From the IMG/VR virus record IMGVR_UViG_3300009314_000709, positions 1 to 64,000 of that record: a stretch of DNA of 64,000 nucleotides. One strand, written 5' to 3'. Below are positions 2,204-38,188 of the stretch, in pieces (positions within the stretch are counted from its first letter, which is position 1; the number at the start of each line of letters is the position of its first letter). The notes under the pieces were generated by a model. The model saw only the letters and a program-made list of their open reading frames with translations. It was not told where the DNA came from and ran no database searches. Made by a program: the position numbers and the translations under genes. Origin of the DNA: a virus.

Positions 2204-4501
2204 ATGTGTGGAATTGTAGGGTTTATTGGTGAGCCCTTAGACAGCCGATTGGCGTTTGAGTTGTCAACAAACCTATTGGCGAGAACTGAAATACGGGGCG
2301 ATGATGCTTCGGGGTATTGGGCTTGTGACACGTTGCCAGAAGATCAAGGGTGTGTTTACTGGACGAAGGCCCCCAAGAAAGCCAGCGACTTCGTTAAGGG
2401 CGACGGCTGGCAGGCGATCAAAGATATTAAGCTGAATCTTCTTATCTCACATTGTCGCCGATCTACAGTCCGAGGCAGCGAAAACAAGAACCGCAACAAC
2501 CATCCATTCCTAAGTAGCGATTCTCGCACAGCGCTTGTTCATAATGGTAACGTCCCCGAGTTTGATTCGCTTCGGAGCGACTATGATGTAATGAGCGAAT
2601 GCGACAGCGAGATTCTACTTCGTATGATGGAGCGTGGTCCTCATTACAATCTTGAATACCTGCGGCAACAACTTGGACGCCTCAAAGGCAGTGGCGAGAA
2701 AGCTATCAAAGATTGCCCGGATGAAGAAGTCCCATTGTGGAGCCACAGTCTTCTCGGACTCGTCGACATCTTTGCTCGAATCAATTACGGCGCAATGGCC
2801 GTAGCGATTGGAGAACGGTGGGAAGACGGAACACGAGCCCTCTGGTTATTCCGTGATCGAGAAAGGCCGCTACAAGTCATAGACATGCGGGAATCTCTCA
2901 ATCAGGTCTACGTTGTTTCCGAAAAGCGAATTTGGCGAGAAGCGGTCGAAGCGACACCAAACGCCAGACGGTACGTCAAAGGCTCGACTCCGATCATTGA
3001 ATTTCCGCCGATGTACATCTGGCTGCTGACCTACCGGGAGGGCGAGAAAAACAAGTTTGGCGTGAGGAAGTTCCGCATCAATCGCCAGCGCCGTCACGAT
3101 ACAACATTCGAGGAAGAGCGCCCAGACGATTTGGTTCAGCCAACAAACCGGGGGGCGATTCGTGTTGTCACAAATCTCAAGCACGACCACGAACAAGATC
3201 ACACAAATGGCGTCACGGCGCACGAACCGACCGCCTCCGACAGCACACCAGTAAAGAAGAGCGACGACAAAGGAAAGAAAACCGAGTCAAAAAAAAACGT
3301 AAGCGCCCCCTCACCGCCCACCCACACTTCTTCACCGGAGCCCGACGAGACCTCAAACCAGACGTATGAAGACTGGCCGGGGGAAGTCTACCCTTTTGTG
3401 AGCCGCTACCTGACTACCTTCTTTGAAATGCCGACCGCCGAAAGAAGCCGTCCGGCCATGAGTCAGGTGGTACAATTGCGAACCACCGCATATTCGCCCA
3501 GTCTTAGCATCCCTGATCCAAGCGACAAAGCGATTGTACTAGGCAATCCGCACTACCGAGACTGGGCTAATGCGCTCAAAGCCAAACATGGCTGGCATGA
3601 TCGAGTCCGCCAATCAGAGGGCGTAGCCAAGCGAGACATAATATCTCTCTGGGTCATCCTTAGAGAAGCCCGAGAAGCCTGGCAAGCTATGCCTAGTGAT
3701 GAGCCGGTCTCCGCCTTCACGAACAACCTAGCTCCCACAGATTGCTTCGAGCACATGATACGGTTGATCGACGCTCGTACCAAAGTGTCGCATAGACCGT
3801 GGCCAACGGGAATGACCGCTGGGCTAACGGATACCTTCAAAACACTGCAAGAGCAACTGACGGAAGCAGCGGTACGTCTTCGGGATCAGGATGAAGAATT
3901 TCCCGACATGACGAACTACGAGGCAGAACTTACGAAGGATCATTACCACCGGTGGGCCAAAGTTCTCCAGGCACGACATCAATGGAACGATGCGGCCTGG
4001 AGAAACGGTATCGATGTTAAGTTGTTCTTCTTACTCTCCGAAGTACACAACTCCTGGAGAGGGCATATGCGAACCGTGTATGCCGACGTTCCATTTGATG
4101 CCGATGATCCACCGAGCATGGCCTGTGAAGCTATTGGGGCTGCGAATGCTCAAGTACGAGTGCGGAAGCCGCCCTTTGAAGACGACGAGGAAGAAGACGA
4201 AGGCGAGAACGGAGATCACGAAGTAGAGCGTCCCCTAGGCGTGATAAGGACCGACAGAATGACTGTACACGAATCAGAACCAGGCCAACTCGACATGGAT
4301 AAAGTGGAAGAGTTCAATGACTCTCTCCACAAGTTACGAGAAATTCTTGCCGGGATTGATACCGGCGTAAACGAGTTGATCCGAGAAAAGACAATCAACA
4401 ACACCGAATTGCACGAGATTGTCGACAGCCTCAAGGATGCTGTGCAAGACATGGAAGGACTGAACATCATCGCCGAGAGCTACACGAAACAAGCAACTTA
4501 A
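2204..4501 (+). CDS. class II glutamine amidotransferase with duplicated C-terminal domain
   Basis: The start is fixed by family chemistry: ATG at 2204 gives MCGIVGF, with the nucleophile Cys2 exposed after Met removal, and GAGGA lies 7 nt upstream. The N-terminal third is an Ntn-hydrolase glutaminase like those of asparagine synthase and GlmS, with RGDDASG, HNGN and CDSE motifs; it releases ammonia from glutamine. After a charged linker rich in Lys, Ser and Pro (about residues 340-400) come two copies of an unrecognised module (HYRDWANALKAKHGW near 448, HYHRWAKVLQARHQW near 577). The C-terminus is an acidic coiled-coil-like segment. No synthetase domain is fused, so the ammonia acceptor must be elsewhere. 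Phage class II amidotransferases are known to accompany COOH-NH2 ligases, and one lies at 48517. Confidence 0.88.
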   Translation: MCGIVGFIGEPLDSRLAFELSTNLLARTEIRGDDASGYWACDTLPEDQGCVYWTKAPKKASDFVKGDGWQAIKDIKLNLLISHCRRSTVRGSENKNRNNHPFLSSDSRTALVHNGNVPEFDSLRSDYDVMSECDSEILLRMMERGPHYNLEYLRQQLGRLKGSGEKAIKDCPDEEVPLWSHSLLGLVDIFARINYGAMAVAIGERWEDGTRALWLFRDRERPLQVIDMRESLNQVYVVSEKRIWREAVEATPNARRYVKGSTPIIEFPPMYIWLLTYREGEKNKFGVRKFRINRQRRHDTTFEEERPDDLVQPTNRGAIRVVTNLKHDHEQDHTNGVTAHEPTASDSTPVKKSDDKGKKTESKKNVSAPSPPTHTSSPEPDETSNQTYEDWPGEVYPFVSRYLTTFFEMPTAERSRPAMSQVVQLRTTAYSPSLSIPDPSDKAIVLGNPHYRDWANALKAKHGWHDRVRQSEGVAKRDIISLWVILREAREAWQAMPSDEPVSAFTNNLAPTDCFEHMIRLIDARTKVSHRPWPTGMTAGLTDTFKTLQEQLTEAAVRLRDQDEEFPDMTNYEAELTKDHYHRWAKVLQARHQWNDAAWRNGIDVKLFFLLSEVHNSWRGHMRTVYADVPFDADDPPSMACEAIGAANAQVRVRKPPFEDDEEEDEGENGDHEVERPLGVIRTDRMTVHESEPGQLDMDKVEEFNDSLHKLREILAGIDTGVNELIREKTINNTELHEIVDSLKDAVQDMEGLNIIAESYTKQAT

Positions 4502-4510
4502 TCGGAATAT

Positions 4511-4539
4511 GCGCACTCCTTTAGTTTGTAGGAGTGTGC
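4511..4539 (+). promoter_or_regulatory. hairpin covering a ribosome binding site
   Basis: Ten-base arms (4511-4520 and 4530-4539, one G-T pair) enclose a 9-nt loop. The 3' arm holds AGGAG, the only ribosome binding site for the ATG at 4541. When folded, the structure would hide the site, so it may control translation of the nuclease. It could also be a weak terminator, but no T-tract follows. Confidence 0.5.
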
Positions 4540-4540
4540 T

Positions 4541-5101
4541 ATGCCCGATGATGATTTCGCATATGAGGTTGACAACGTTCTCGCCGAGGCGGAAAAGCAA
4601 AAACGCTCAAAGAAAAAGAAGAACTCAGGTGACAAAGGCGACCGTGGCGAGCGGATGCTGTGCCAGGTTCTCAACAGGCATTTTGACACCAATGAATTCA
4701 CACGTGTTTTGGGTAGCGGCAACCGATGGAGCCAAGTTGAGTTTGTTAAGAAGGATTACATAGGTGATGTCGTATGCCCGGACGATTTTAGGTTCGTTGT
4801 TGAATGTAAATTCGGGTACACCGACGAACTTGATCTGTACTCAGCTATAGCGAGCGGACATTACCTGCTCGACGAATGGACCAGCAAGGCCGAAGACTAT
4901 GCGGAACGATCTGGCCGTGATCCTATCATTTGTTGGAAACGTGAGTATCTTCCTTGGCTCGGTATCGTAAAGACAAGCGCCTTAGACCAAGAATTCGATT
5001 TCCAGTTTAAGTACAGAAATTGGACCAGCACGGCGCTAGACAACCTACTCGCACTAGGTAAGGAGTTCTTCTATGTCCGACAAGGCAAAGAGGATGGATG
5101 A
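4541..5101 (+). CDS. PD-(D/E)XK family nuclease (resolvase-like)
   Basis: 186 residues. After a basic lysine-rich stretch (about residues 18-32) the order GERML, RVLGSGNRWSQ, GDVV and VECKFG reproduces the PD-(D/E)XK core: Glu in the first helix, Asp before the second strand and E-x-K in the third. This layout is typical of Holliday-junction resolvases and of Vsr/RecB-like phage endonucleases. The likely role is cleavage of branched or foreign DNA. Its stop overlaps the next gene by 29 nt. The exact substrate cannot be read from the sequence. Confidence 0.75.
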   Translation: MPDDDFAYEVDNVLAEAEKQKRSKKKKNSGDKGDRGERMLCQVLNRHFDTNEFTRVLGSGNRWSQVEFVKKDYIGDVVCPDDFRFVVECKFGYTDELDLYSAIASGHYLLDEWTSKAEDYAERSGRDPIICWKREYLPWLGIVKTSALDQEFDFQFKYRNWTSTALDNLLALGKEFFYVRQGKEDG

Positions 5102-5360
5102 ACGCTATCGGGAGGAACTTCAACTTGAACTTAGTCTTCGAGTACCGAGGTTCCAAAAGACCTACGACGAAGACGTAGCCCACTTCTTGTACTCCAAAGG
5201 CTATGGCTACCATGACGTGGCAATGGCGCTAATCGCACTACAACGCAAAACAAATGAGCAAGACCCGCAGTACGGACGATGGGTTGAGGGCGGCTGTGGT
5301 GATGAGCTTTTCGTCGAGACAGACACCGAGTGCCTGGACTCACGTGAAATACTTGACTGA
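5073..5360 (+). CDS. hypothetical protein
   Basis: 95 residues, acidic C-terminus, not recognised. AAGGAG lies about 7 nt before the ATG. It overlaps the end of the nuclease gene by 29 nt, so translation is probably coupled. Confidence 0.65.
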   Translation: MSDKAKRMDERYREELQLELSLRVPRFQKTYDEDVAHFLYSKGYGYHDVAMALIALQRKTNEQDPQYGRWVEGGCGDELFVETDTECLDSREILD

Positions 5361-5520
5361 GATTTGTTAAGGAATAATCGGCGACGTGCCGATTACATAG
5401 TGTGGGAGAAAATACCGTGGGGTCGCTGACTCCGGCCCTGAAGACTAATGCCCAATGCGGTTGAGGGTACTCCCAGCCCGTCGTTTCCAACACGGCGGAC
5501 AACCCCAAGGAGAGTTTAGA

Positions 5521-6372
5521 ATGCCTTACTCGCAACGTTTTGTCGCCTCCGTCGTCGTTGACGGACAGGTTCAGAAAGAGAGCCCTGATGGCTCGGTCGA
5601 AATTCCTTTCGGCTCCGAGTACACCCTTCGTTTCCGCAACAAGCACCGTAACCGTCGTGCCGTTGTAAAGCTCTGGATTGACGGTGAGGAGCAATCCATA
5701 GGTGGGTACGTGATCCCGCCTAGCTCGTTCAAAGATATCGAGCGGAATAGCCACTCACCGCACAGGTTCAAGCTGGTTAATCCCCACTCCGCTGACGCCC
5801 AGGCGCACGGTAAGGATGAACACAACGTCGAAGGTTACAACGGCGTTGTGGAAGCAAGGTTCTACCTCGAAAAAGAACAGCCGCAGGAAGTCCACCATCA
5901 CCACCATCACCACCATGACCACTACCATCCCGTGCCACGACCACCACGGCGTCCGCCGTGGCAACCGTACCCCTACGAGACTTTCTCGTTGGATGCGAAG
6001 AGGGACTCGGGAGGGCCACGTGGACAAAGCGCCGGTGGTGAACAGGAGATGAGGACATGCTCTACAAACGCAGCCGACTACGACGAGGCTGAGTGCGCAC
6101 CCGAATTTCTATCGATGGGTGCCACCGAAGCGGAAGCAGCGCCAAAGAGAGCCAGCGCTAAGCGGGCCATGCGGCGTAGCACTGTCGCCGGTGTGACTGT
6201 TGAAGGGAGCAGGTCGAGCCAAACCTTCCGCAAGGTGGATATTGATCTGGAAGAACAATTCACACCCATCAAGTTGATCTTGAAGGGTTATCACGCCGGT
6301 CCCACGGAAGTGGACGAAGTGGAAGTGCTAGACGACGCCGACGTGGTCGAGGCCACTTCAAAAAAAGCCTAA
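5521..6372 (+). CDS. His-rich phage protein, zero-frame product
   Basis: 283 residues. The ATG at 5521 is chosen because AAGGAG sits 7-12 nt upstream and MPYSQRFVASVVVDG looks like a true N-terminus; an ORF start at 5455 has no such site. Residues 1-120 look like a beta-rich domain of a type seen in large phages, of unknown function. They are followed by eight consecutive histidines then DHYH (about 124-135) and a Pro/Arg-rich linker. The C-terminus is acidic. The last sense codons contain seven adenines, and a -1 shift there adds a zinc ribbon (see next entry). The His tract suggests metal binding. A 160-nt gap upstream holds a small hairpin (5373-5391) but no recognised gene. Confidence 0.8.
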   Translation: MPYSQRFVASVVVDGQVQKESPDGSVEIPFGSEYTLRFRNKHRNRRAVVKLWIDGEEQSIGGYVIPPSSFKDIERNSHSPHRFKLVNPHSADAQAHGKDEHNVEGYNGVVEARFYLEKEQPQEVHHHHHHHHDHYHPVPRPPRRPPWQPYPYETFSLDAKRDSGGPRGQSAGGEQEMRTCSTNAADYDEAECAPEFLSMGATEAEAAPKRASAKRAMRRSTVAGVTVEGSRSSQTFRKVDIDLEEQFTPIKLILKGYHAGPTEVDEVEVLDDADVVEATSKKA

Positions 6373-6485
6373 CGGCGACTGCTAGGCCAACGTCCGCAGT
6401 CGCCACAAGCTACTGCTCGAACTGTGGTGCAAAGAGGAAGCCCCCAGGGGCGAAATATTGCCATGTCTGCGGTCACAAGTACTAG
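6360..6485 (+). promoter_or_regulatory. candidate -1 programmed frameshift site and zinc-ribbon extension
   Basis: The run A AAA AAA (6360-6366) is in the correct phase for tandem tRNA slippage (TCA AAA AAA GCC). After a 7-nt spacer comes a perfect 9-bp stem (6374-6382 with 6396-6404, 13-nt loop). The zero frame stops at 6370-6372. The -1 frame stays open for 39 codons to a TAG at 6483-6485. It encodes two CxxC knuckles (CSNCG and CHVCG) spaced as in a zinc ribbon. The -1 frame has no ATG, GTG or TTG before the ribbon, so it cannot easily be a separate gene. Confidence 0.72.
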
Positions 6486-6502
6486 AGGTGGTTTACCACA
6501 AG

Positions 6503-6537
6503 AAACCCCGCCCCGGCCGTTGGCCGGGGCGGGGTTT
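6503..6537 (+). terminator. strong hairpin terminator
   Basis: A perfect 16-bp GC-rich stem (6503-6518 with 6522-6537) with a 3-nt loop lies just after the zinc-ribbon stop. No long T-run follows on either strand, but the position between genes fits a terminator. Confidence 0.8.
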
Positions 6538-6559
6538 CGCTTTATGAAAAGGTAGCACG

Positions 6560-7045
6560 ATGCCTAAGTCCTTCGCTCTCGCCCTGAATCACCACATGGT
6601 TGGACAACTCGCTGGCCCTGGTGACTTTCCTTTACCGGCCACGCCGAAACCGATAGACCTCTCTTTGATCGAGTTTGAGCGTGAACCTCGCAACGGAGAG
6701 AAAACATTCATTGAAGGCTTCTGGTTTGATGCTACTTGGTATGATTTGCTCTCCCAAGCGTCCACCGAAGCGCAAATGCGAGAAGTCGCTCGCCACATGT
6801 CCCTAGAGCAGCTATCGCATGACTTTGCTACAGTTAGTTACCAAGACGATGTATCCACGATAAGCCAGGCTACTCGCAACACGGTTATCAAGGTCGTCGA
6901 GGAAGAGTTAACGGGCCGAAAATCTACATCCCAGCTTCCACCTCGTGGGTTACTCGATCCAGATTACGTGCCGCCAACCAAACGCCAAAGGTCAAACGAA
7001 GCGCCCGAACCCGAGATCACGACAGAAAGAGACATCATCCTTTAA
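6560..7045 (+). CDS. hypothetical protein
   Basis: 161 residues, not recognised. AAGGT lies 7 nt before the ATG. A Pro-rich opening is followed by a mixed alpha/beta region and a basic C-terminus. It follows the terminator, so it probably has its own promoter, and it converges on the acetyltransferase gene. Confidence 0.65.
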   Translation: MPKSFALALNHHMVGQLAGPGDFPLPATPKPIDLSLIEFEREPRNGEKTFIEGFWFDATWYDLLSQASTEAQMREVARHMSLEQLSHDFATVSYQDDVSTISQATRNTVIKVVEEELTGRKSTSQLPPRGLLDPDYVPPTKRQRSNEAPEPEITTERDIIL

Positions 7046-7103
7046 CTGTGTGCAAAGCGATGGCTCGCCGCAGATAATCTTCACACCATTCATTAACATG
7101 AAA

Positions 7104-7688
7104 TCAAGCCTTTTGTGGCATCAAGCTCTTATCTCCATGTTTCGCCATAATCTTTCTGTAACCTGCACGAGTCATCCGTTCTCCAGCATCTGTCATTTGA
7201 CCAATCTGCATTTTTCCTGACAGGAATCTGGGATCGTTTTCCATAAACATGACTAGCAAATCAGACCCAATTCCCAGTTTCTGGTATGGTCGCTCGACCC
7301 AAACTCCAATCGTACCGAATTCGTTGCTCGTAAAACCAACGGGCTCCTCATTGACAAAGGCAACGATTGTCTGATCGTGCGTAGGAAGTCCGCTGTTTCG
7401 GATTTCCTCATCTGTCATATCAACAACTAACCCTCGTGCGTCTCGTTTGATATCTCCATTAACGTCGTGAGCAACATACGCATTCTTTTTACCAGACTGC
7501 CGGAACTCTACCATATGCGGCCCGTACTCTTTAGAGGAAAGCAAGACAGGATATTTCGATTTGGGGCCTAGCCAAGACAATCCCCCAGGTTCCTCATATC
7601 GCTCGTAAGATGAGGCGGGAATCCATCCAGTTTTATGGTGTTGCAGAAACTCGTCTTCGGTGGTTTCTAGCCATCGCTTGAAGTTCAT
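7104..7688 (-). CDS. GNAT-family N-acetyltransferase with capsid-targeting-like N-terminus
   Basis: 194 residues. Residues 115-150 hold the acetyl-CoA binding motif A of GNAT enzymes (VERPYQKLGIGSDLL), preceded by a typical strand (GTIGVWV). The family moves an acetyl group from acetyl-CoA to an amine; the substrate is unknown. The N-terminus MNFKRWLETTEDEF belongs to the short motif shared by many proteins here, so it may be packaged in the virion. There is no ribosome binding site. Instead CTATATATCTG (7690-7700) ends one base before the ATG, which hints at a leaderless message. Confidence 0.75.
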   Translation of the reverse strand: MNFKRWLETTEDEFLQHHKTGWIPASSYERYEEPGGLSWLGPKSKYPVLLSSKEYGPHMVEFRQSGKKNAYVAHDVNGDIKRDARGLVVDMTDEEIRNSGLPTHDQTIVAFVNEEPVGFTSNEFGTIGVWVERPYQKLGIGSDLLVMFMENDPRFLSGKMQIGQMTDAGERMTRAGYRKIMAKHGDKSLMPQKA

Positions 7689-7689
7689 G

Positions 7690-7700: not shown

Positions 7701-7708
7701 CAGGCAAC

Positions 7709-8458: not shown

Positions 8459-8465
8459 ATTCGTC

Positions 8466-12977: not shown

Positions 12978-13232
12978 ATGAAATCCTTTGAAACATGGGT
13001 TGAAGAAAATCAATTGAATGAAATTCCAGTCCCAGATCCTTCAAACGTATCAAGAATGGGATCGGCAATGGCGGGGACGGGAGCGAAGTTCGATTTGGGC
13101 GGATGCCACTTGCAACTTGTAGGGAACCAATTGCACATATCTCGCCGAGCGGGCGGTGCTGAAAATGTGGTGCTTTTAGCGCTATCTCCCCAGCAGGTTC
13201 AACAAATGACAGCCGAACTGGAACTTACATAA
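12978..13232 (+). CDS. small protein with capsid-targeting-like N-terminus
   Basis: 84 residues. MKSFETWVEENQLNE is one of the clearest copies of the N-terminal motif shared across the window and closely recalls the targeting peptide of T4 internal proteins. The rest is a small Gly/Ala-rich domain of unknown role. CTATATACTG lies about 20 nt upstream in an A/T-rich leader and may be a late promoter. Confidence 0.65.
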   Translation: MKSFETWVEENQLNEIPVPDPSNVSRMGSAMAGTGAKFDLGGCHLQLVGNQLHISRRAGGAENVVLLALSPQQVQQMTAELELT

Positions 13233-14792: not shown

Positions 14793-15268
14793 TGCGTGTC
14801 ATCAATGGATTGCTTATTCTATCACTGGTGGTGGCTGGACTGGCCTTTGTGCACTTTGAATTCATCAAGCCTGGTCTGGAGGAGAATCGTCAGCTTCAAG
14901 AGCAGTTGGAATCCAGCACTGTCGAACAACAGATTCATCCTTCGCTTCCGTTGCGAAACCTGGAACGCATTGCCACCATGCCCGAAGATCGTGTTGCTCG
15001 GCGGGTAATTGACATGATGGTAGGGGAGACCGCCTTTGTTGCCAGAGGGGCTTTGGTGGTTGATGAGCCAAAGCGTTGTTGGCTTCATCCCCAAGCGGTA
15101 GCAGGGGCGACTATATCAGATCAGTCTCTAGTGACATTCATGCTCAAGATCACACGTGTAGCAGACGGGTTCGAGGTGGAGATCAACGATGCTTCAAAAT
15201 ACCGTTGGACACCTGAACTCAGTGTTCCTGCATCTTATTTTCCGGTGGTTAAGATAAGTAGCTATTAG
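14789..15268 (+). CDS. membrane-anchored protein of unknown function
   Basis: 159 residues. One N-terminal transmembrane helix (about 5-25) is followed by a short coiled coil (LEENRQLQEQLE) and a globular part that should face the periplasm. The start overlaps the cupin stop (ATGA). It overlaps the convergent gene at 15265 by 4 nt. Confidence 0.62.
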   Translation: MMRVINGLLILSLVVAGLAFVHFEFIKPGLEENRQLQEQLESSTVEQQIHPSLPLRNLERIATMPEDRVARRVIDMMVGETAFVARGALVVDEPKRCWLHPQAVAGATISDQSLVTFMLKITRVADGFEVEINDASKYRWTPELSVPASYFPVVKISSY

Positions 15269-16029
15269 GCTCCACCAGCCACCATACCAGTACCGATAAG
15301 GCCACCAGTTCCCAAAGCCTTTGCCCAACCAGGATGTTTCTTAGCAAACCCTCTCCACTTATCACCAAGTCCGCCAACAGCGCCTCGAATACCGGCTTGC
15401 CTACTAAGTGTTTTCGACCGACCCATTCGTTGGCCAAGTCGTTCAGCACCCCGGCCGACTGCGCCTAACAGTCCTTTTTCCTGACCTACGTCTTTTCCCC
15501 ATGCTTGGACTTTTTGGACTACGCCGCCAGCCTTCATAGCATCAGTGTCGTGTCGATCTTGTAATTGTTTGTCAAGCTGTTCAGAACCTTGTCTCACCTG
15601 CTTTAAGAATTTTTGTATTATCTGTGCGCTTTGTACCCCTTTTGCTGTGTCAACGCCCATTGTTTGGGCTTGAGTAAGTGCTTGCGTAAGATCAGCAACA
15701 GCGTTGATCGCTTTTTCATACGCTGGGGTAATTTGATGTGCCTGACCTTTGCCAAACCATCCACGTATTCCTTTATCTGCACGTTGACCTAGCTTAGCGC
15801 CACCTACTGCACCGCCGACAGTTCCCATTGGGCCGAGAATAGAACCTAGGGCACCTCCGCCAACAGCGCCCACCATACTACCCACACCTTCTTGAATGTC
15901 AAGTTCAAGGATTTCTATGAGGTCATTGATGGGCTCTAAACTCAAGTTGTTGTCTACAATGTAGACCGCACATTCCCAGATGATACGATCAAGTTCTCGT
16001 TGCTCAAAGTAAGTTTGAAACGTGCTCAT
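15265..16029 (-). CDS. glycine-rich protein with capsid-targeting-like N-terminus
   Basis: 254 residues. It begins MSTFQTYFEQRELDRII, a copy of the shared N-terminal motif. A Gly-zipper region (GSMVGAVGGGALGSILG, about 50-85) could insert into membranes, followed by helical and basic segments. It is a paralogue of 38239-38811, with the same order (motif, LD-II, LIE/LLE, Gly zipper, helix). A packaged or membrane-interacting protein is plausible. Confidence 0.65.
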   Translation of the reverse strand: MSTFQTYFEQRELDRIIWECAVYIVDNNLSLEPINDLIEILELDIQEGVGSMVGAVGGGALGSILGPMGTVGGAVGGAKLGQRADKGIRGWFGKGQAHQITPAYEKAINAVADLTQALTQAQTMGVDTAKGVQSAQIIQKFLKQVRQGSEQLDKQLQDRHDTDAMKAGGVVQKVQAWGKDVGQEKGLLGAVGRGAERLGQRMGRSKTLSRQAGIRGAVGGLGDKWRGFAKKHPGWAKALGTGGLIGTGMVAGGA

Positions 16030-18361: not shown

Positions 18362-18922
18362 TTATTCTAGGTAAGCCCGATCATACCGCAAACTAATCTC
18401 CAAGAGAACTATCGACATGTCACCCATATCAAGGTCGCCGAAGTTGACCTCACGGGGGTAGCAGTTTTCAAACTTCCATTTTTCGGTGACTTTACCGCAG
18501 CCGTCGTACATGCACAAGACCGCATTTCGCTTAAAGAAGTCACCTCCATGTAAATTCGGGTCAAATACTGGTTTCCACTCTTCCCCTCCCTCCGGTTTGG
18601 GGTCGTAGGCTTGCTTCACCCACTCAAAGACTTTATTTTCGTTCGGACGAGTGTCATATAGTGTAAGTTGTAATGGCTTCCAATCTCCCATCACTGGATA
18701 GAAGATGTGTTGTACCAAATGCGAGACTTGCTGTTCTTTGAACTCCAATTGGGGACGAGCGGCTTTCAAAGGTGGCAAAGCATTGGAAACACCAGAAACG
18801 CCTTCGATTTGCAAGAGCCAACGGTTCTTAACTTTCGGGAAGCAGGCACCCATGCCTTCTAACCCAAAATCCAAGCCCATATTGTCTCTATCGGTACATG
18901 TCGGATAGGTCGGTGGCGGCAT
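18362..18922 (-). CDS. tail tube protein paralogue 1 (gp19-like)
   Basis: 186 residues. Carries the gp19 family pattern near the C-terminus: NAVLCMYDGCGKVTEKWKFENCYPREVNFGDLD, then IVLLEISLRYDRA. Tail tube proteins stack as hexamers inside the sheath. This is the most divergent of three adjacent copies. Its ATG follows the stop of the next copy without a gap. One copy may be the main tube and others tube-end or hub caps. Confidence 0.8.
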   Translation of the reverse strand: MPPPTYPTCTDRDNMGLDFGLEGMGACFPKVKNRWLLQIEGVSGVSNALPPLKAARPQLEFKEQQVSHLVQHIFYPVMGDWKPLQLTLYDTRPNENKVFEWVKQAYDPKPEGGEEWKPVFDPNLHGGDFFKRNAVLCMYDGCGKVTEKWKFENCYPREVNFGDLDMGDMSIVLLEISLRYDRAYLE

Positions 18923-19507
18923 CTACAAACATCCTTCGCAGCATGGTGAGGGATCGACTCCACCGCATCCTACGATGTACTTAACTTGTGAGTATCGTAA
19001 AGTCATTTCGATATCGGCGATATTGGAAGAGCTATAATCTAGGTCGTTAAAGTTAACAGCCTGTGGCCAGGCATCTAGTAAGGTCCAGATTTCCATCACC
19101 GTGCCGCAGCCATCATACATGGTGAGCGTGGCTTTGCCGCTGAACCCTGTTCTTTTAGATGACATCTTCTTCGATGTCGGTTCGTTGAAATCATACACGG
19201 CAAGCAGCCACGAGAGAACCTGGACTCCATTACCTTTGTTGGAGTCCAGGAACGTCACGGTAACTGGTTCCCAGGTTGCCTTGCCGGGTATCCACGTTCT
19301 GTCGTTTAGGAAGTTTATCTCGATCTCTTCAAACGAGATACTAGGACGTGCTGCGACCTTGACAAAGTGTGGGTCAATTCGGAAGGAACAGTCATAGCCC
19401 TCTACCTCAAACGTCCACCTGAATTTAGTCTTGAAGACAGTTTGAGGATCACCTATACCGACAGAGCCGATACCCATGCCTTGAGAAGCGGGGTTAAAGC
19501 CTGCCAT
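18923..19507 (-). CDS. tail tube protein paralogue 2 (gp19-like)
   Basis: 194 residues from ATG 19507, chosen because GAGGA lies 5 nt upstream and MAGFNPASQGMGIG aligns with the start of paralogue 3. It has KTKFRWTFEVEG, FVKVAARPSISFEEIEINFLNDRTWIPGKATWEPVTVTF and AWPQAVNFNDLDYSS. The C-terminus has extra cysteines (CGGVDPSPCCEGC). An 11-bp inverted repeat (19219-19250) lies inside. Confidence 0.85.
   Translation of the reverse strand: MAGFNPASQGMGIGSVGIGDPQTVFKTKFRWTFEVEGYDCSFRIDPHFVKVAARPSISFEEIEINFLNDRTWIPGKATWEPVTVTFLDSNKGNGVQVLSWLLAVYDFNEPTSKKMSSKRTGFSGKATLTMYDGCGTVMEIWTLLDAWPQAVNFNDLDYSSSNIADIEMTLRYSQVKYIVGCGGVDPSPCCEGCL
19219..19250. repeat. 11-bp inverted repeat inside tail tube gene
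   Basis: Arms 19219-19229 and 19240-19250 are perfect complements around a 10-nt loop; intragenic. Confidence 0.75.
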
Positions 19508-19664
19508 GTACGTCCTCAACAGTGTGTAATCGACATCTACGTACTCTCGTCTTAGATCAATCCATCGTTTCCAGTTGTTGACTTCTTTCACCAGGTACGT
19601 ACATTTCCGCTTATACTACGCAGCTAAAACTAAGCTGCTCGTTTCCACTTTGGCTCGATTCCTA

Positions 19665-20291
19665 CTACGTGCAAGGGAAACAGCACGGGGTGTATTCCCA
19701 TTTCGGACAGTAGTGCTCGAAGTGTACCTGCGAGTACCTAAGCGTTAGCTCAATGTCGACGGTGTCGGATGAACTGTAGTCTAGGTCGCCAAAGTTAATG
19801 GCTTGCGGCCACGCATCCTCGAATACCCATACTTCTAGCAATTCACCACAACCATCCCATAACTTCAAAGTGGCTTCACCAGCGTAGTTAATACGCTTAC
19901 TGTTCATGTACTTGCGGGTTGGCCTTGTGAAGTCAAAGACATTGGTGAGCCAGTCATACAAACCTAGGTTGCCACCAGCGGCGTCACCTGATAGATGTCC
20001 TGCGACATCCATATACGTGACCGTGATGGCTTCCCAGCTTGCTTTTCCTGGAATCCATGTCTTATCATTGAGGAAGTTAATTTCTGTTTCCTCGAATGAC
20101 AGGTTAGGTCGGGCCGCTACTTTAACAAAGTAAGGCGGGACACTAAATTGACAATCACCTGTGCCCAAAATCTCTAGCGTCCAACGGAACTTCCGTTTGT
20201 AAACTACTTGGGGATCACCAACACCAACTGGTCCGATGCCCATACCTTGCGAGTTGGGATCAAAACCTGAGTAACCAGACATAGTTGGCAT
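19665..20291 (-). CDS. tail tube protein paralogue 3 (gp19-like)
   Basis: 208 residues from ATG 20291 (GGAGAG about 8 nt upstream). Shares MGIGPVGVGDPQVVYKRKFRWTLE, ARPNLSFEETEINFLNDKTWIPGKASWEAITVTYMD and AWPQAINFGDLDYSSSDTVDIELTLRYSQV with paralogue 2. It sits directly after the sheath gene, the usual place for the main tube protein (gp18 then gp19), so this copy is the best candidate for the true tube. Confidence 0.87.
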   Translation of the reverse strand: MPTMSGYSGFDPNSQGMGIGPVGVGDPQVVYKRKFRWTLEILGTGDCQFSVPPYFVKVAARPNLSFEETEINFLNDKTWIPGKASWEAITVTYMDVAGHLSGDAAGGNLGLYDWLTNVFDFTRPTRKYMNSKRINYAGEATLKLWDGCGELLEVWVFEDAWPQAINFGDLDYSSSDTVDIELTLRYSQVHFEHYCPKWEYTPCCFPCT

Positions 20292-20327
20292 AATCAATCT
20301 CTCCTATCGGTTATGTTTAGTTGGTCG

Positions 20328-27777: not shown

Positions 27778-28302
27778 ATGGACTTTTATCAACTCGACGA
27801 AGCAACAACCAGATACAGTGTTGAAGTTAACTACCGCACTAATCTCAAAGAAGTGAAGGAAGGCTTCGCTAAAATGGTGCTGGGTTACGTAAGCGCCGCT
27901 TTGAAAGAGCGAGGCTTTCATGTGAAGAAGTATCTCGGAGAACATCCATATCGCCTCATCGTGTCTGCCCGCAACTGGGTAGATGGCGAGTGGGTACTGG
28001 TCGTGTCGTTCTATCCCAAGGAAGACTGTTTTGTCCTCTCCAAAGGCTTCTTCAACAAAGACCGAGATACCGTAACTGTCCAATCTAGCGAGCGATGCAA
28101 GGACGATTCCGCCGCCGATATCTTCCGCACAGTATTTAACAAGATGTCTAAACTGAAGGACGAACCAGATCACCACGTAGGTGGCTTGAAAGGCGTCAAA
28201 GGCAAAACAGGCCCCAAGAAGGGGTCAATGAGACCAACGCAGAGCTTTGAGAATCTTGCGAAATTCTTAAAACCATCACGTGAAGAGAAAATTGGAATGT
28301 GA
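27778..28302 (+). CDS. hypothetical protein
   Basis: 174 residues, alpha/beta in appearance, with a Lys/Gly-rich loop (GGLKGVKGKTGPKKGS) near the C-terminus. Starts 4 nt after the neck gene. Not recognised. Confidence 0.62.
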   Translation: MDFYQLDEATTRYSVEVNYRTNLKEVKEGFAKMVLGYVSAALKERGFHVKKYLGEHPYRLIVSARNWVDGEWVLVVSFYPKEDCFVLSKGFFNKDRDTVTVQSSERCKDDSAADIFRTVFNKMSKLKDEPDHHVGGLKGVKGKTGPKKGSMRPTQSFENLAKFLKPSREEKIGM

Positions 28303-28304
28303 TA

Positions 28305-28550
28305 ATGAAACCAATCAATTTTGAGCAATGGCTGCTAGAAAACACTGACGTTCAGATTTGCCCTACTTGCACATATCCTTTTAGTGGTGATGCCTGCCCA
28401 AACCCAGCGTGTGCCGCTAATCCTGACATTCCAGATGATGTCAAAGCGGCGCAAGCAGCAAAAGCTGATAAAGCGAGAGCGGAACAAGAAGAACGAGATA
28501 GAGTGGATAGAATTAAACGTAGAATGATGTACACACGATTCCGGCAATAG
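28305..28550 (+). CDS. small zinc-ribbon protein with capsid-targeting-like N-terminus
   Basis: 81 residues from ATG 28305. MKPINFEQWLLENTD fits the shared N-terminal motif. It is followed by CPTC and CPNPAC, a likely zinc knuckle, and a charged helix. It may be an internal virion protein that binds nucleic acid. Confidence 0.62.
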   Translation: MKPINFEQWLLENTDVQICPTCTYPFSGDACPNPACAANPDIPDDVKAAQAAKADKARAEQEERDRVDRIKRRMMYTRFRQ

Positions 28551-28556: not shown

Positions 28557-29192
28557 ATGTGGCACCGTATTGGCAAAAGTGGAGAAAAGGTCTGGGGTAA
28601 GCGAGGCGCAGGGTTCGCCTTTTCAGAAGGAGAGCATCTTCTACTACTCAGACGAAGTGATAAGAAAGGCAAAGGCGACCCGTGGAGCAAAACGTGGAGC
28701 TTTCCTGGTGGCAGATCAGAAGAAGACGAAACTCTGTTGGGTACTGCTCAACGAGAAACTAGGGAGGAAATTGGGAAGCTCCCTAATGGTCGGCGTCTCT
28801 CCCACATCGATTCTCAAAACGGGCGACACCTCTTCCGTACATACATCTGTAAAGTCCCTCACCGGTTCTCGTGCGATCTCAGTGACGAGCATGATGCTTA
28901 TCGATGGTTCCATTTGAACGATCTTCGGGAAGTCAATCTTCATAAGAAGACCAGAGAGACGATAGATGACGTTGTGCGCATAATCGTAAACCGCACCGGA
29001 GGGAATACACATAACGAGTCCTATATGTCAGGATTTGCGGAATACGTTAGCCTACAAGAAGTAGGCGGAGCAACCGCTGATTTGTGGGCTGGTTATCATA
29101 AGGGTGTTGATTACCAGATTGAAGGCGACCCTAGTTCAATGTACCCACAAAGAAGAGAACGTCGTAGGAAGCGCCGTCGGTCAAGAAAGTAG
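28557..29192 (+). CDS. Nudix hydrolase
   Basis: 211 residues. The Nudix box is complete (GGRSEEDETLLGTAQRETREEIG, about residues 50-72), with all metal-binding glutamates. It hydrolyses nucleoside diphosphate-linked compounds, by analogy such as oxidised nucleotides or capped RNA. The C-terminal 60 residues are an extension ending in a very basic tail (RRERRRKRRRSRK), unusual for the family and suggestive of nucleic-acid binding. Confidence 0.88.
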   Translation: MWHRIGKSGEKVWGKRGAGFAFSEGEHLLLLRRSDKKGKGDPWSKTWSFPGGRSEEDETLLGTAQRETREEIGKLPNGRRLSHIDSQNGRHLFRTYICKVPHRFSCDLSDEHDAYRWFHLNDLREVNLHKKTRETIDDVVRIIVNRTGGNTHNESYMSGFAEYVSLQEVGGATADLWAGYHKGVDYQIEGDPSSMYPQRRERRRKRRRSRK

Positions 29193-29489
29193 TTCTCGCA
29201 CTCCGCCAAGCACTCGTTCACTGATACCTTTTACTCTCTTAATATCTTCTACGCTGGCGAACGGGGCAGCCTCTATAAGTCGTTGAGCTAACTTTTCACC
29301 CACACCCGATACTTGCATCCATTCCTCAACCGACCAGTGATTGAACGCCACATCCACTTCGGGTGATGTTGTGCCGCCCTCTTCGTTCGGTTCGCAGTTC
29401 ATTAACTCTTCTCGCTGCTGTAGAAAGTTTGGTCGTGCAAGTCTATAGTTAGCTTTAGCCCAGCTTTCAAAGCTCTGAAGTTCTGTCAT
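29181..29489 (-). CDS. helix-hairpin-helix protein with capsid-targeting-like N-terminus
   Basis: 102 residues. MTELQSFESWAKANY matches the shared motif. The C-terminal half has a double helix-hairpin-helix (VSGVGEKLAQRLIEAAPFASVEDIKRVKGISERVL) like those of ComEA-type DNA-binding proteins. A packaged DNA-binding protein is likely. ATGA overlap with the upstream gene. Confidence 0.75.
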   Translation of the reverse strand: MTELQSFESWAKANYRLARPNFLQQREELMNCEPNEEGGTTSPEVDVAFNHWSVEEWMQVSGVGEKLAQRLIEAAPFASVEDIKRVKGISERVLGGVRELLS

Positions 29490-33109: not shown

Positions 33110-33195
33110 GGTTGGCTCCCCTTGGCAAACAATCTGCGTACTCTAAGTATAGCATAGACACCGTTCCGGGGAAACAGGTTCTCTGCCTACGCAAC

Positions 33196-33864
33196 TTATT
33201 CCGCAGCTTGGACTTGCGGCAATTTGAAGAATCGCTGAACCAATTTAACGCAGTACTGGAATCCTTCGCTCTCCTTGGGCATGAATTCCGGGTGATACTG
33301 CATCCCGAGGGCCTTGGTTTTTGGGTACCACACCACATCGTGCTCTCGGTCAGGTTCGTATTCGACGCCTGGCGGGCCTTGATAGCACGCCGAACGTCTC
33401 GGCTCGGCCCAAGCGATTGGTACGGCGTCGTCGGGAGGGAGTTGCATCTGGTGATGTGTGGAAGAGACTTCAATAAGGCGACCGTCGTCAGTGAGTATCT
33501 TGTGATAGCCGCCATGCCCAGTAATATGTTGTGCGAGCTTGCCGCCACTCATGGCACAAATGAATTGACTACCACGGCAGATGCCCGCAATGGGGATGCC
33601 TAGCCGTACGGCTGCCCGAAACACTTCGGCCTCGAACTTGTCACGCTTAGGATCATTGTATGTTCTCTCGTTTGCTTCTTCTCCGTATAGCGAAGGGGTC
33701 ACGTCTGACCCGCCTGTGAAAACTACTAGCGCAATCTCGTCTCTAGTGTCCTCGTCCGCTAAGGCTAAAGCACGAATATGGCGTTCGCCGAACGTCTGGA
33801 ATGGCAAGTAATACGACGCACCACAATCGGCGTTGTCGTTGACCATCAGTATCTTGCTACCCAT
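33196..33864 (-). CDS. class I glutamine amidotransferase-like (peptidase C26)
   Basis: 222 residues from ATG 33864. FTGGSDVTPSLYGE, the nucleophile elbow GICRGSQ and MQYHPEF give an intact Cys-His-Glu triad of the PuuD/gamma-glutamyl hydrolase type. Such enzymes release ammonia from glutamine or cleave gamma-glutamyl amides. Related proteins are known next to phage COOH-NH2 ligases, and one is encoded at 48517. Together with the class II enzyme at 2204 this gives two separate amidotransferases. Confidence 0.85.
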   Translation of the reverse strand: MGSKILMVNDNADCGASYYLPFQTFGERHIRALALADEDTRDEIALVVFTGGSDVTPSLYGEEANERTYNDPKRDKFEAEVFRAAVRLGIPIAGICRGSQFICAMSGGKLAQHITGHGGYHKILTDDGRLIEVSSTHHQMQLPPDDAVPIAWAEPRRSACYQGPPGVEYEPDREHDVVWYPKTKALGMQYHPEFMPKESEGFQYCVKLVQRFFKLPQVQAAE

Positions 33865-33871
33865 CACAGCC

Positions 33872-34294
33872 TCACTCAGTTATGTGGATGACTTCGACTT
33901 GCCTGGTGTCTACAATGTCGTCGGCTGTCTCGATAGTTCGATCTGGGCCGAGCGACCGCACCTGTAGATACTCGGCAAGACTGTCGGCGAAGTAGGTGTA
34001 CCGAAGGTTGTTGTTCCAGGAATCAACACAGGGAATCTCTCCGCTGTTTTCGTCGTTGAACCTGGCTAGGCCACCGTTCGCCGTGTTCTGCGATTCAAGA
34101 CGTGTGGCCCATTCGGAAACAAGTAATGTGGCTTCGTTGTAGTTCTCTTCCGCCCTCCGAGTACGGCTATTGGTGTCCCAGATTATCAACCCGATGAGAC
34201 CACCAAACATACAGATGACGGGGATGGTAATGAAGAGAAACCCCCACTCCTCCATGAATGAATGCTTACGATCAGATGTGTATGAGTATGGCAT
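33872..34294 (-). CDS. pseudopilin-like membrane protein
   Basis: 140 residues with one transmembrane helix (about 18-40) and a C-terminal SWNNNLRYTYFADSL, VRSLGPDRTIETADDI. The latter resembles the calcium-binding end of type II secretion pseudopilins (GspG), which are abundant in Planctomycetes. The prepilin cleavage site is not obvious. AGGAG precedes the ATG. Possibly taken from the host; role unknown. Confidence 0.55.
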   Translation of the reverse strand: MPYSYTSDRKHSFMEEWGFLFITIPVICMFGGLIGLIIWDTNSRTRRAEENYNEATLLVSEWATRLESQNTANGGLARFNDENSGEIPCVDSWNNNLRYTYFADSLAEYLQVRSLGPDRTIETADDIVDTRQVEVIHITE

Positions 34295-34311
34295 GGGACC
34301 ACTCCTGATAC

Positions 34312-34341
34312 AAAAAAAGCGGCAACGTACACGTTACCGCT
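34312..34341 (-). terminator. intrinsic terminator
   Basis: On the minus strand a 10-bp stem (34341-34332 with 34327-34318, one G-T pair, 4-nt loop) is followed by seven T. It lies downstream of the gene at 34405. Confidence 0.85.
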
Positions 34342-34404
34342 TAATCGTAGTCTCCCATCAGAACTACGCAATATCAGATTATCGTCGGTTTTATCATAAA
34401 ACCT

Positions 34405-34869
34405 TTAGATGATTTCGATGCCGTCGAGAGGGTTCTCGTTCAGCAACACGTCCGGTTGTGGTTCTTCCTTCTGAGGCTGCGTTTCGTTGAGTTTTTGCTG
34501 TTGCTTTTCGGGTTTCTGTTCCACAAACTCTACCGTACCCTCATTGGTCACAATAGGAGGTTGCTCTGTGATTAGCTTGTCAGCCATCGGTTGCTCCGTT
34601 GATTCGTTAATAGGTTGCACCTGGGCTACAGAGGGGGACTCAATAATCTTTACGAGCCGCAATTCGTTGCTCTGCACCATGAACATATAGTAGTTATCTC
34701 CGACAAATTCCTCGTTAACTGCAACTTTGCTAGTGCCTGACTTAGTTGGGCGTGGTAAAAAGAGGTCTCCGCTTGTGTTGTTGCGGAAGACGAATACGCC
34801 GTCGCCGCTCAGTGCGGACTTCCGTTTCTGAGCACGGAGAACATTTTTCTCGTATTTGTTCAGTCTCAT
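34405..34869 (-). CDS. hypothetical protein with Gln/Glu-rich tail
   Basis: 154 residues. A basic N-terminus is followed by a small globular part (VFRNNTSGDLFLPRPTKSG) and a disordered tail rich in Gln, Glu and Pro. Not recognised. GAGG precedes the ATG, and a terminator follows. Confidence 0.62.
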   Translation of the reverse strand: MRLNKYEKNVLRAQKRKSALSGDGVFVFRNNTSGDLFLPRPTKSGTSKVAVNEEFVGDNYYMFMVQSNELRLVKIIESPSVAQVQPINESTEQPMADKLITEQPPIVTNEGTVEFVEQKPEKQQQKLNETQPQKEEPQPDVLLNENPLDGIEII

Positions 34870-34969
34870 ATTGCCTCATGTTTTTGCGATTTACCACCGA
34901 TATCTTTAGTAATATAGTGTCTCTCGCTCCACCTTTCATAACAAAACCGCAAACTCGGAGGAAAACCCT

Positions 34970-35314
34970 ATGAGCGGAACCACTACTGTAGCACAGACGC
35001 CGAAGAAGTGGTGGCAAGTCTACCAAGGCGACCGGGAGTGTCGTCTCTTCAAGGCTCTGGCACGAGGCAAGCATGAGTGGCGTACTACTGATGGTTTGAT
35101 GAAAGCGGCCAAGCTGAATCAATCCGAAGTGGAAACCATCTGTGCTAAGTATGTCACTGTCGGCTTGATCCATCAACACTCGAAAGAACCTGGCAAGTGG
35201 CGTTACTGGGAACGGGCTACGGCGAAGAAGAAACAAAAAGGCATCGCCGACGAAGACAAGAGTCGCCGCATCGATGAGAAGCTCGGCACAAACTCGTCGC
35301 CTGGCGGCTGCTGA
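34970..35314 (+). CDS. putative winged-helix protein
   Basis: 114 residues. The pattern LFKALARGKHEWRTTDGLMKAAKLNQSEVETICAKYVTVGLIHQHSKEPGKWRYWER looks like a winged-helix fold (three helices and a beta wing), suggesting DNA or RNA binding. The C-terminus is basic. GGAGG precedes the ATG and a strong terminator follows, so it is a single-gene unit. Confidence 0.62.
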   Translation: MSGTTTVAQTPKKWWQVYQGDRECRLFKALARGKHEWRTTDGLMKAAKLNQSEVETICAKYVTVGLIHQHSKEPGKWRYWERATAKKKQKGIADEDKSRRIDEKLGTNSSPGGC

Positions 35315-35355
35315 GGCCCGTAATCTCTTCGCACAGTTTGTGCGGCTCGATTACG

Positions 35356-35390
35356 AAAACGCCCCGCCGAGATTCTCGGCGGGGCGTTTT
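35356..35390 (+). terminator. strong intrinsic terminator
   Basis: A perfect 16-bp stem (35356-35371 with 35375-35390) with a 3-nt loop ends in a six-T tract. The A-rich 5' side makes it usable from both directions, fitting its place between convergent genes. Confidence 0.92.
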
Positions 35391-35415
35391 TTATTGCTCT
35401 AATCAATAGGAGGTC

Positions 35416-35655
35416 TTACTTCTTATTGATTGACTGGTAGTATGGCGAGTCGGCAGCCGATGGCACCTTCCAAAGCGACGGGTATTGCCCAGCGTAGTAT
35501 TGGGGTGGATACAGCGGCTCCTTAGCGCCCGTCCGCTTACGGTTTTCGTTAGCGGCGTCCTTATCATCTCCCATTGGCAACTCAAGTTCATTTTCTGAGC
35601 AATAGAGGATGAAATCGGGAATACGTGGTTCCAGTACGGTTGTCTTTTCGCTCAT
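35416..35655 (-). CDS. hypothetical protein
   Basis: 79 residues, soluble, Tyr/Pro-rich C-terminus (PLYPPQYYAGQYPSLWKVP). Not recognised. GGAG lies before the ATG. CTATATACATC upstream may be a promoter. Confidence 0.55.
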   Translation of the reverse strand: MSEKTTVLEPRIPDFILYCSENELELPMGDDKDAANENRKRTGAKEPLYPPQYYAGQYPSLWKVPSAADSPYYQSINKK

Positions 35656-35698
35656 ATTTACAACTCCAATGACTGTTTCCTTGTGATGTATATAGCCA

Positions 35699-36679
35699 TT
35701 AGTCGATAAAAACCAAAGGGACTTCTGGCTGTCTCGGGAGTTTGGGATTTCGTTGTTTCCAATACTCTCGACAAGTATTTAGAGCTTCCTGGCTGAAATT
35801 TGAATAATGCTCCGACAATTCAGCAAAGTCGGCCAAGGGCTCAAGTGTTGGGTCTTCCTTGAGTTCGGTATACCACTCTTTCCATCCATTATCGAAGTGA
35901 ACTTGCTTCACAGTTGTGCCATAGAAATGTCGACAGCTTCGGAAGAAGTCTTCATCGACTAACGTGACCATTTTGTGTCCATTTGCTAAGAGCTTTGTCG
36001 ACACGGCGTAACCAGTATCTCCCATAGTAAGTTGGTACGATGTGTTTTCCTTCAGCGAGCGGTGCATGATGAGAAACCGTAAGTCAAATTCGTCTGACGT
36101 ACCCCAATGCTCTCCGGCTTCCCAAACCAAGGCGGTTCGCCAAAAAGCCAAGCATGGGTGAAGCCGCTTCAACGTACGGCCTTGGAACGGACCTATGCGC
36201 CAAGCAATAGCTTGCTCCGCCGAGCCAACACATCCTACTTGTGGATCAACCAGGAACGGTAGAAGAAATGGCTCGATCCAATTTGGGCCAAGAAACTCTA
36301 CGTCGGTATCAAGTGTTGCAAAGATCGGCGAAGTGACTTTTGTTACGAGGAAATCCAAAGCGGAATTGTGCGTAGTACGGTAGTCTCGTAGAATCGTTTT
36401 AGCCCTAAAATAGTCCGTCAAATACGGCTCTAGGCCATAGTGGTCAATGACCGCTTGTTGTCTTTGTTTGTACGTATCATCTGTAGGCCGGTCTTCCAAT
36501 CTCCACAACCGAACCTCTGGAAGAGCGGCCAGATATTCGTCCGACCCATCGCTACTCCCATTATCACAGCAGAGGATTTCATAAGAAAATCCGGGATGGT
36601 ATTCCCGCAGGCTCTTAACTAGAATTTCGATATGTTCAGCCGAATTATAATTAGCGACTAGAAATTGCAAGCACTTCAT
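35699..36679 (-). CDS. glycosyltransferase family 2
   Basis: 326 residues. The N-terminal nucleotide-sugar fold is clear: FLVANYNSAEHIEILVKSLREYHPGFSYEILCCDNGSSDGSDEYL, then the metal-binding ATLDTDVEF. It transfers a sugar to an unknown acceptor. AAGGA precedes the ATG. The start is back to back with the divergent gene at 36680 (CATATG), so each gene's signals lie within the other's first codons. Confidence 0.85.
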   Translation of the reverse strand: MKCLQFLVANYNSAEHIEILVKSLREYHPGFSYEILCCDNGSSDGSDEYLAALPEVRLWRLEDRPTDDTYKQRQQAVIDHYGLEPYLTDYFRAKTILRDYRTTHNSALDFLVTKVTSPIFATLDTDVEFLGPNWIEPFLLPFLVDPQVGCVGSAEQAIAWRIGPFQGRTLKRLHPCLAFWRTALVWEAGEHWGTSDEFDLRFLIMHRSLKENTSYQLTMGDTGYAVSTKLLANGHKMVTLVDEDFFRSCRHFYGTTVKQVHFDNGWKEWYTELKEDPTLEPLADFAELSEHYSNFSQEALNTCREYWKQRNPKLPRQPEVPLVFID

Positions 36680-38188
36680 ATGTCCTTCTATGGCGACATC
36701 ATCGACCGAGTACGGCGATTCAGGCTGGGTATTACTAATCCCAATGTCACTGAATCTCTAATAAAGAAGCGAGACGAGCCAAAGATGAAGGTTCATTCGG
36801 AAAATTGTCTCAAGTTGATGATCGAATATATCAACTTTCACACTGAGCCCGTTATGGCGGGCAAGTGTAAGCCAATCAACCACACGCATCTTTCAAGAGC
36901 CTTGGATCATTTTACCTGCCCCGATCCCACCTTTCCATCAAGCGTTCTTCGTGGCATACACTACATGAGATGGGAGGAGCTACTAACACAACATTTTGGT
37001 TGGGTTCCTCGGTGTAACCGACGTACAATGGAAGTGGTTCATCTTTCCGATGTGCTTGGAATGGCTAGAGAAGACGCTCTGGCCCGAGATGAAGGCGGCC
37101 TCATAGCCGTATCGGATATATCGAAGCCGGATAAAACCACACCAGCGCCGCCAAATGTATTTGACTTTATGGCGAGGCATTTAGACTCGCACAGTGTTAC
37201 TATACCGGACCACAAGGCATCACTATGGACGATCAACCGTGATATCTTGGAAGAATCGGCTTCGTTAGCTGGTTTTCTTTACCTCGATCAGTTAGACTGT
37301 GATCTTAGCACAAACGACTATGAGGATTGGGCCGACCTACTCAAGATGACATATGCCGCTGGAGAAAGGCAACCTAAGTTATCAACAGCGCTACAGGAAG
37401 CACGAGAGGCGTGGCTAAGACTCGCCGAACCGCAAACCAACGAGACTCCTGGAGAAGATGATATGAGAAGCGCCCTATTTGCCGAAGTGAAAGTCGAAGA
37501 CGCTGGTGCGGAACAGCTTTCCGATTGCGTAACAGTGACTTCCCACCAATGTGATTTCTGCAAGAAGGAGGCGTCCGTCAACGGTCGCACTGGTGCCTTG
37601 TTGCAGAGGCTTACGGGAGACAACCAGTTCTTTTGTTCCTTCTGCGTGCGCAATGACTTCCACACGAAGAAACGAAAGGACGTTCTCATACTCACGCTAC
37701 GTGCTTTGATCGGCTATCTCTACTATTTCTGCTATTTCGGCAAGACGCCAAGGCTCTTTCTTTCGGAGGTCGGGGACATGGTAACGATCCATGTAGCCAT
37801 AGGGCGACAGAATCCCCTCTTCGTATACGATCCAGATACGTTTTGTTGGTTCGTAGACTTTTCCAAGGTAGGGACTACAAAGAAGAAGGTGCCGGTTGCC
37901 GAGGTGATTCGCACCGTAAATGAGATGATCTCTGCCTTCAATCCCTACAATCATATTAAGGAATTCAAGAGCCACAAATACTCTGAACGATTTGCGGAAG
38001 CGATCATGGATTTCTATCAGCGTAGATACCGGCCGCAAGCCAAGGCAGTCTGTGCTCCCACCTTACTTCACTGCGCTTCAGATATGCGAGAACAGCAAAA
38101 AGACCACACGACAACGACGAAAAAGATCGACATTGCTGTTTTCCGTGATTTCCTGCCTGGCTCTTTCAAATTGAATCCTCGTCGCTAA
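36680..38188 (+). CDS. zinc-finger protein with repeats shared with the class II amidotransferase
   Basis: 502 residues from ATG 36680. Residues 80-115 (PDPTFPSSVLRGIHYMRWEELLTQHFGW) and about 200-245 (NDYEDWADLLKMTY through LQEAREAW) resemble the repeated module in the amidotransferase at 2204. A CxxC...CxxC zinc finger (CDFCKK and CSFC) lies near residues 290-325. A C-terminal domain of about 170 residues is unassigned. The start is uncertain: no good ribosome binding site exists, and ATG 36785 is an alternative. Confidence 0.62.
   Translation: MSFYGDIIDRVRRFRLGITNPNVTESLIKKRDEPKMKVHSENCLKLMIEYINFHTEPVMAGKCKPINHTHLSRALDHFTCPDPTFPSSVLRGIHYMRWEELLTQHFGWVPRCNRRTMEVVHLSDVLGMAREDALARDEGGLIAVSDISKPDKTTPAPPNVFDFMARHLDSHSVTIPDHKASLWTINRDILEESASLAGFLYLDQLDCDLSTNDYEDWADLLKMTYAAGERQPKLSTALQEAREAWLRLAEPQTNETPGEDDMRSALFAEVKVEDAGAEQLSDCVTVTSHQCDFCKKEASVNGRTGALLQRLTGDNQFFCSFCVRNDFHTKKRKDVLILTLRALIGYLYYFCYFGKTPRLFLSEVGDMVTIHVAIGRQNPLFVYDPDTFCWFVDFSKVGTTKKKVPVAEVIRTVNEMISAFNPYNHIKEFKSHKYSERFAEAIMDFYQRRYRPQAKAVCAPTLLHCASDMREQQKDHTTTTKKIDIAVFRDFLPGSFKLNPRR

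Follow-up and report, generated by a model that had tools for sequence, protein, structure and literature searches.

We identified a small domain that is carried as a tandem pair by two otherwise unrelated proteins of a T4-like phage, a class II glutamine amidotransferase (GATase, P0001) and a zinc-finger protein (P0002). Judging from profile searches and alignments, it is one real domain of about 105 residues that was previously uncatalogued, and our tentative reading is that it docks the two proteins onto one partner or onto each other. New here are the length of the module, its tandem arrangement and its insertion into two proteins that also exist without it; the result clearly shows a single domain pair present on two genes of one virus lineage and missing in its relatives.

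The analyzed DNA, called the window below, is a 64-kb stretch of a 72,432-base virus record. Sheath, gp19-like tube, gp15-like sheath stabiliser and baseplate genes make up a T4-like tail set in this record, and the counterparts of T4 gp18, gp19 and gp15 mark a contractile-tailed T4-like phage. Sheaths of named phages are only remote relatives of this one (27-38% identity, with 38% as the maximum for the best-matching pieces among the named phages listed), which points to an unsampled T4-like phage, and contigs of 343 and 532 kb among its relatives make a jumbo phage the probable source of the fragment.

A tandem module in two unrelated proteins

The first protein (765 aa; 2204..4501, plus strand) had been predicted to be a class II amidotransferase, and this assignment stands: Pfam GATase_6 (PF13522) matches at 37.9 bits against a cut-off of 27 (2.1e-9), the nucleophile Cys directly follows the Met (MCGI), and the full-length homologs L014 and L015 share 41% identity with it. 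The protein does not qualify as GlmS, PurF or AsnB, which would call for a further domain (synthase, isomerase or phosphoribosyltransferase) after the GATase part and for a score above the NCBIfam cut-off: the best NCBIfam match reaches 50.8 bits against a cut-off of 381 and covers residues 1-162 only. The protein is laid out as a GATase domain (residues 1-~325), a linker, two modules, an acidic linker and a C-terminal helical tail (residues ~690-765; 4274..4501, plus strand). Its two module copies lie at residues ~391-506 (m1; 3356..3703, plus strand) and ~512-639 (m2; 3710..4102, plus strand). The second protein (502 aa; 36680..38188, plus strand) carries two more copies, at residues ~45-147 (m3; 36797..37108, plus strand) and ~161-258 (m4; 37151..37441, plus strand), fused ahead of a zinc-finger core.

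Both open reading frames and all four motif copies were found where the original prediction had placed them, but the module is longer than the 60 or so residues it had proposed, the actual ~105 including an N-terminal helix. The proposed sequence pattern survives in part: Y, W, L and L are the only invariant positions across eight copies (m1-m4 plus two each from L014 and L015), and the PDP and the second W are missing in m4, the most divergent copy. The consensus reads roughly P.[DN]C[YF].[FY][MI]..[YF]I ... PDP[ST] ... [DH]Y..WA..LQ..[YFH]GW..R ... L..[LM]L..[AF][HR]E[TSA]W.

Several searches connect the copies of the two proteins. By blastp, residues 78-222 of P0002 align with residues 434-589 of P0001 (1.7e-5), an alignment that takes in the two copies one after the other. 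The profile check proposed in the original prediction came out in its favor: a profile of m3 and m4 recovers P0001 at 7.9e-12, and one of m1 and m2 recovers P0002 at 3.8e-4. When the profile is built from nothing but the L014 and L015 copies, P0001 is matched at 4.2e-22 and P0002 at 2.8e-13 (m3 9.6e-8, m4 1.4e-3), and a profile of these copies plus m1 and m2 (six GATase copies) finds m3 at 1.7e-11 and m4 at 8.8e-7. With these relatives-only and six-copy profiles P0002 scores 46.1 and 67.9 bits, respectively, against best values of 8.3 and 11.2 among 5000 shuffles. Leave-one-out domain E-values are 6e-7 for m1, 2e-5 for m2, 6e-4 for m3 and 0.13 for m4, and the eight-copy profile, which includes m4 itself, matches m4 at 2.2e-24. 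No further copy was found in any other ORF of the 72-kb record.

The module showed no convincing sequence match in Pfam, PHROG, NCBIfam or PDB (best PHROG E-value 0.0083, in one of the eight copies), and the cores of the two proteins are unrelated, in agreement with the earlier view of an undescribed module common to two otherwise unrelated proteins. Two candidate matches elsewhere were rejected, one to the module DNA pattern in L008 that runs antisense to a real ORF, and one found by tblastn with the module region in phage Bitten (E 0.5) that spans several small genes; the tblastn match in phage Karate had an E-value of 4.

The window copies are 17-26% identical to one another and 18-28% identical to the relatives' copies, the zinc-finger copies being equally distant from the window's GATase copies (17-26%) and from those of the relatives (18-28%). 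Between the window's GATase and those of the relatives the modules share 24-28% identity, and the GATase domains are 66-68% identical among the three phages; the copying may therefore be old, or the domain may be fast-evolving, and a tree of the eight copies has no starred branch and gives no order of duplications.

Relatives with and without the module

L014 (a 92-kb contig) and L015 (39 kb) were found in IMG/VR with a DNA pattern for VHNGN[VIL]PE, short-peptide searches of IMG/VR with single proteins having given no match, and each carries two module copies at the same GATase position as P0001. The two module-bearing relatives are syntenic with the window, G001 being collinear with it over 1-28 kb and G002 over less. 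As both of these contigs end before the P0002 locus, a P0002 with modules was observed in a single phage.

Distant relatives were collected with a neck-gene alignment that led to 32 IMG/VR loci, and 29 records were searched, the 343- and 532-kb contigs among them. The module was found in none of the 29 (one match, at E 0.16, fell in a stretch with stops). The GATase is present in 13 of them, as open frames of 342-533 aa, and the aligned module-free GATases consist of the catalytic domain and a short linker followed by the same C-terminal helical tail as in P0001. The zinc-finger core is present in seven, and all five of the records of at least 70 kb that have the core (G020, G025, G031, G038, G045) also have the GATase, although these numbers are small. 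Module-free T4-like environmental phages (G020, G025, G031, G038, G040 and others) have both the GATase with its tail and the zinc-finger core, at about 29-44% identity, but, unlike the window, carry the module in neither protein. The gene order CTP synthase, ORF, GATase, PDDEXK is kept in G020 and G031.

By these comparisons, the tandem pair sits in the GATase as an insert and in the zinc-finger protein as a fusion at the N-terminus, and among the records seen both are confined to the lineage of the window. Since the distant relatives have a module-free GATase and a module-free core, either both proteins acquired the pair in a single lineage or both lost it in the others, of which loss is the less economical. 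Cellular-genome matches to the GATase query covered the N-terminal GATase part only and were read as ordinary GlmS-type enzymes; the 80 cellular loci fetched from these matches contained no module.

A probable amidoligase context for the GATase

The record also encodes a phiEco32-like COOH-NH2 ligase without the module (48517..49452, minus strand; PF14395 1.4e-9, phrog_3815 1.5e-48), which likely acts in the GATase's biochemical pathway. An unnamed gene that overlaps it, also module-free (49449..50312, minus strand), has counterparts of 41-45% identity in G020 and G025 and stays adjacent to the ligase in relatives. In Pseudomonas phage tf and in HSd1, the GATase gene lies in one cluster with genes for a COOH-NH2 ligase, an amidoligase, an ATP-grasp protein and a gamma-glutamyl cyclotransferase (PMC3890496). 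The window has the COOH-NH2 ligase of such a system but not the gene cluster: in contrast to tf and HSd1 its genes are dispersed, the GATase lying at 2 kb and the ligase at 48 kb, 44 kb apart. COOH-NH2 ligase genes are present in G000, G020, G025, G029, G031 and G038. Amidoligase_2 was not found in the 72-kb fragment. Seven records that have the GATase do contain it, G001 with its modules among them, and the two long records lacking a GATase match (G036, G047) do not. Given the COOH-NH2 ligase in the record and Amidoligase_2 in the GATase-bearing relatives, the P0001 GATase probably supplies the ammonia in an amidoligase system whose genes are dispersed. For phiEco32, a passage in PMC10580990, citing Iyer et al. 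2009, relates the suggestion that such genes modify the cell wall against superinfection.

The phrog_4736 GATases (tf gp22, HSd1 and Podoviridae ctwe8250) share the N-terminal catalytic domain of P0001 (6.8e-15) but, unlike P0001, have no modules. Those of HSd1 (L010) and tf (L012) end in a zinc-finger-like CxxC...CxxC motif that P0001 does not have. As a separate observation, a zinc-finger-like motif and a GATase thus meet in one polypeptide in these other amidoligase-type phages.

The zinc-finger protein and its possible short form

Searched as a whole, P0002 has no family match in Pfam, PHROG or NCBIfam. Its core of about 240 aa (CxxC...CxFC; 37463..38188, plus strand) has homologs in seven records, with E-values down to 1.4e-49; their open frames measure 225-330 aa and start a little ahead of the zinc finger. 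In a seven-row alignment, C291, C294, C319 and C322 are invariant and form a predicted zinc finger, followed by an alpha/beta domain. The core is predicted well (pLDDT mostly 80-96 over residues 290-450) and showed no reliable fold match, the ferredoxin-like and cyclase-like rows at Z 3-4.3 lying within noise. This zinc-finger family of T4-like phages is undescribed.

The annotated start of P0002 at 36680 has no Shine-Dalgarno sequence, and the ATG at 36785, just before m3, has one (duplex -5.0 kcal/mol) and is the likelier start. A further internal ATG at 37463, with GGAG 8 nt upstream, falls where the module-free homologs begin; its duplex of -6.4 kcal/mol is a value equally good at 5% of internal Met codons. 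Because 37463 has a good Shine-Dalgarno sequence and 36680 none, the gene may make both a tagged long form and the untagged core, or may be the relic of a two-gene fusion.

A small gene (35416-35655) lies beside the zinc-finger gene in the window, and likewise in G020, G025 and G031. The ORF at 39355-41064 combines TPR repeats with a glycosyltransferase family 9 (heptosyltransferase-like) domain, and in G025 and G031, too, it is conserved close to the zinc-finger gene.

Predicted fold and possible role of the module

We predicted the module with AlphaFold2 from the eight copies, with an L014 copy as the first row, and obtained a compact model (pLDDT 89.5, pTM 0.82) whose predicted elements are helix 7-18, a short strand, helix 36-46, helix 60-74 (bearing DY/HYxxWxxxL), a hairpin at 79-86 and helix 88-105. 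In a model of P0002, where the homolog rows cover only the core, m3 shows the same order of elements (three helices, a hairpin and a helix) at low pLDDT (about 20-65 over the module part), and m4 appears as four helices at low confidence. Of the two results that the original prediction had named as refuting it, neither came up in the tests made.

The explanation that we favor, with a probability of roughly 0.4, is a lineage-specific docking domain, by which the zinc-finger protein and the GATase, probably of the amidoligase system, would be tied either to one partner or directly together. In one T4-like, probably jumbo, lineage the pair entered the GATase, where it separates catalytic domain and tail, and was also joined to the front of a conserved zinc-finger protein. 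The domain would dock the protein that bears it, with Y, W, L and L as putative core residues and the rest diverging much faster than the GATase domain. The shared pair would then bring an amide-transferring enzyme, working with the phage amidoligases, together with a zinc-finger factor, either via a partner or directly. Binding of a common partner is our best guess, on the indirect basis of the same lineage, the same tandem pair and the co-occurring cores. Since both cores presumably function module-free in relatives, any link between them would be a lineage-specific extra. The single phage in which P0002 bears modules and the 44 kb between GATase and ligase genes, which are clustered in tf and HSd1, also count against this explanation.

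The pair might instead have spread by duplication within the genome as a spacer or solubility segment only, with no shared partner. The modules do diverge fast and are flanked by low-complexity linkers in the GATase, relatives manage without them, and the zinc-finger copies are no closer to the GATase copies of the window than to those of the relatives. A spacer, however, would need neither a folded core kept over deep divergence nor the exact two-copy arrangement seen in all four proteins, and we consider this explanation rather unlikely.

A role in nucleic acid binding, by which a winged-helix-like domain would target both proteins to phage DNA or RNA, is also unlikely. The confident module model has the H-S-H-H-S-S-H element order of winged-helix domains, the partner core is a zinc finger, VIA places the TEAD4 DNA-binding domain (Z 3.8) first among its matches to the module model, and several weak VIA matches of the low-confidence m3 region are winged-helix domains. 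These Z values lie within the tool's stated noise, however, Foldseek gave no module match at E<=0.001 in PDB or BFVD, which would be unusual for a true winged helix, and the alignment shows no run of conserved basic residues. The module adds a confidently predicted small fold without a match in the structure libraries searched.

Homotypic pairing, in which the pairs dimerise and join the GATase and the zinc-finger protein directly with no third partner, would suit the tandem pair shared by both proteins and the co-occurrence of their cores, but the possible module-free short form from ATG 37463 speaks against it, and we regard it as improbable. Similarly improbable is the more elaborate idea of a transplantable two-copy docking tag that delivers a virus-made protein modification to the place of action of the zinc-finger protein, with the zinc-finger gene making tagged and untagged forms. 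Chance resemblance of helix-rich segments containing W and Y, to which the few invariant positions and the leave-one-out E-value of m4 might point, is refuted by the relatives-only profile match to P0002 and by shuffles that come nowhere near it, and has a negligible probability.

The docking reading offers a testable physical link between two conserved, functionally unexplained phage proteins, a GATase that probably serves the amidoligase system and a member of a zinc-finger family. Should both dock on the same protein, its identity would indicate what the amidoligase system acts on.

Other features of the record

Three gp19-like tail tube paralogs stand side by side at 18362-20297, with a similar series in relatives. 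A further ORF (L003:7980-9008; record 70979-72007, minus strand) looks like the gp19-like tail tube proteins over its residues 165-340, which match the tube protein of a relative at 6e-14; its N-terminus carries an IDVDETI motif, HAD-like in look, with no Pfam match. The same L003 stretch (record 64.9-72 kb) has genes of the sugar-acid type, for a NeuB family protein and a cytidylyltransferase, and one for an APS kinase, all assigned by N-terminal sequence only.

A short F..[WYF][LVAIFM] leader opens about 10 of 100 ORFs and occurs at 4 of 331 internal Met codons. Examples are MKSFETWVEEN, MNFKRWLETTE and MSTFQTYFEQR, and the ORFs concerned include 7104-7688, 12978-13232, 15265-16029, 28299-28550, 29181-29489, 38200-38811, 50398-50769, 55993-56619 and others. 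This leader resembles the capsid-targeting leader of T4 internal proteins.
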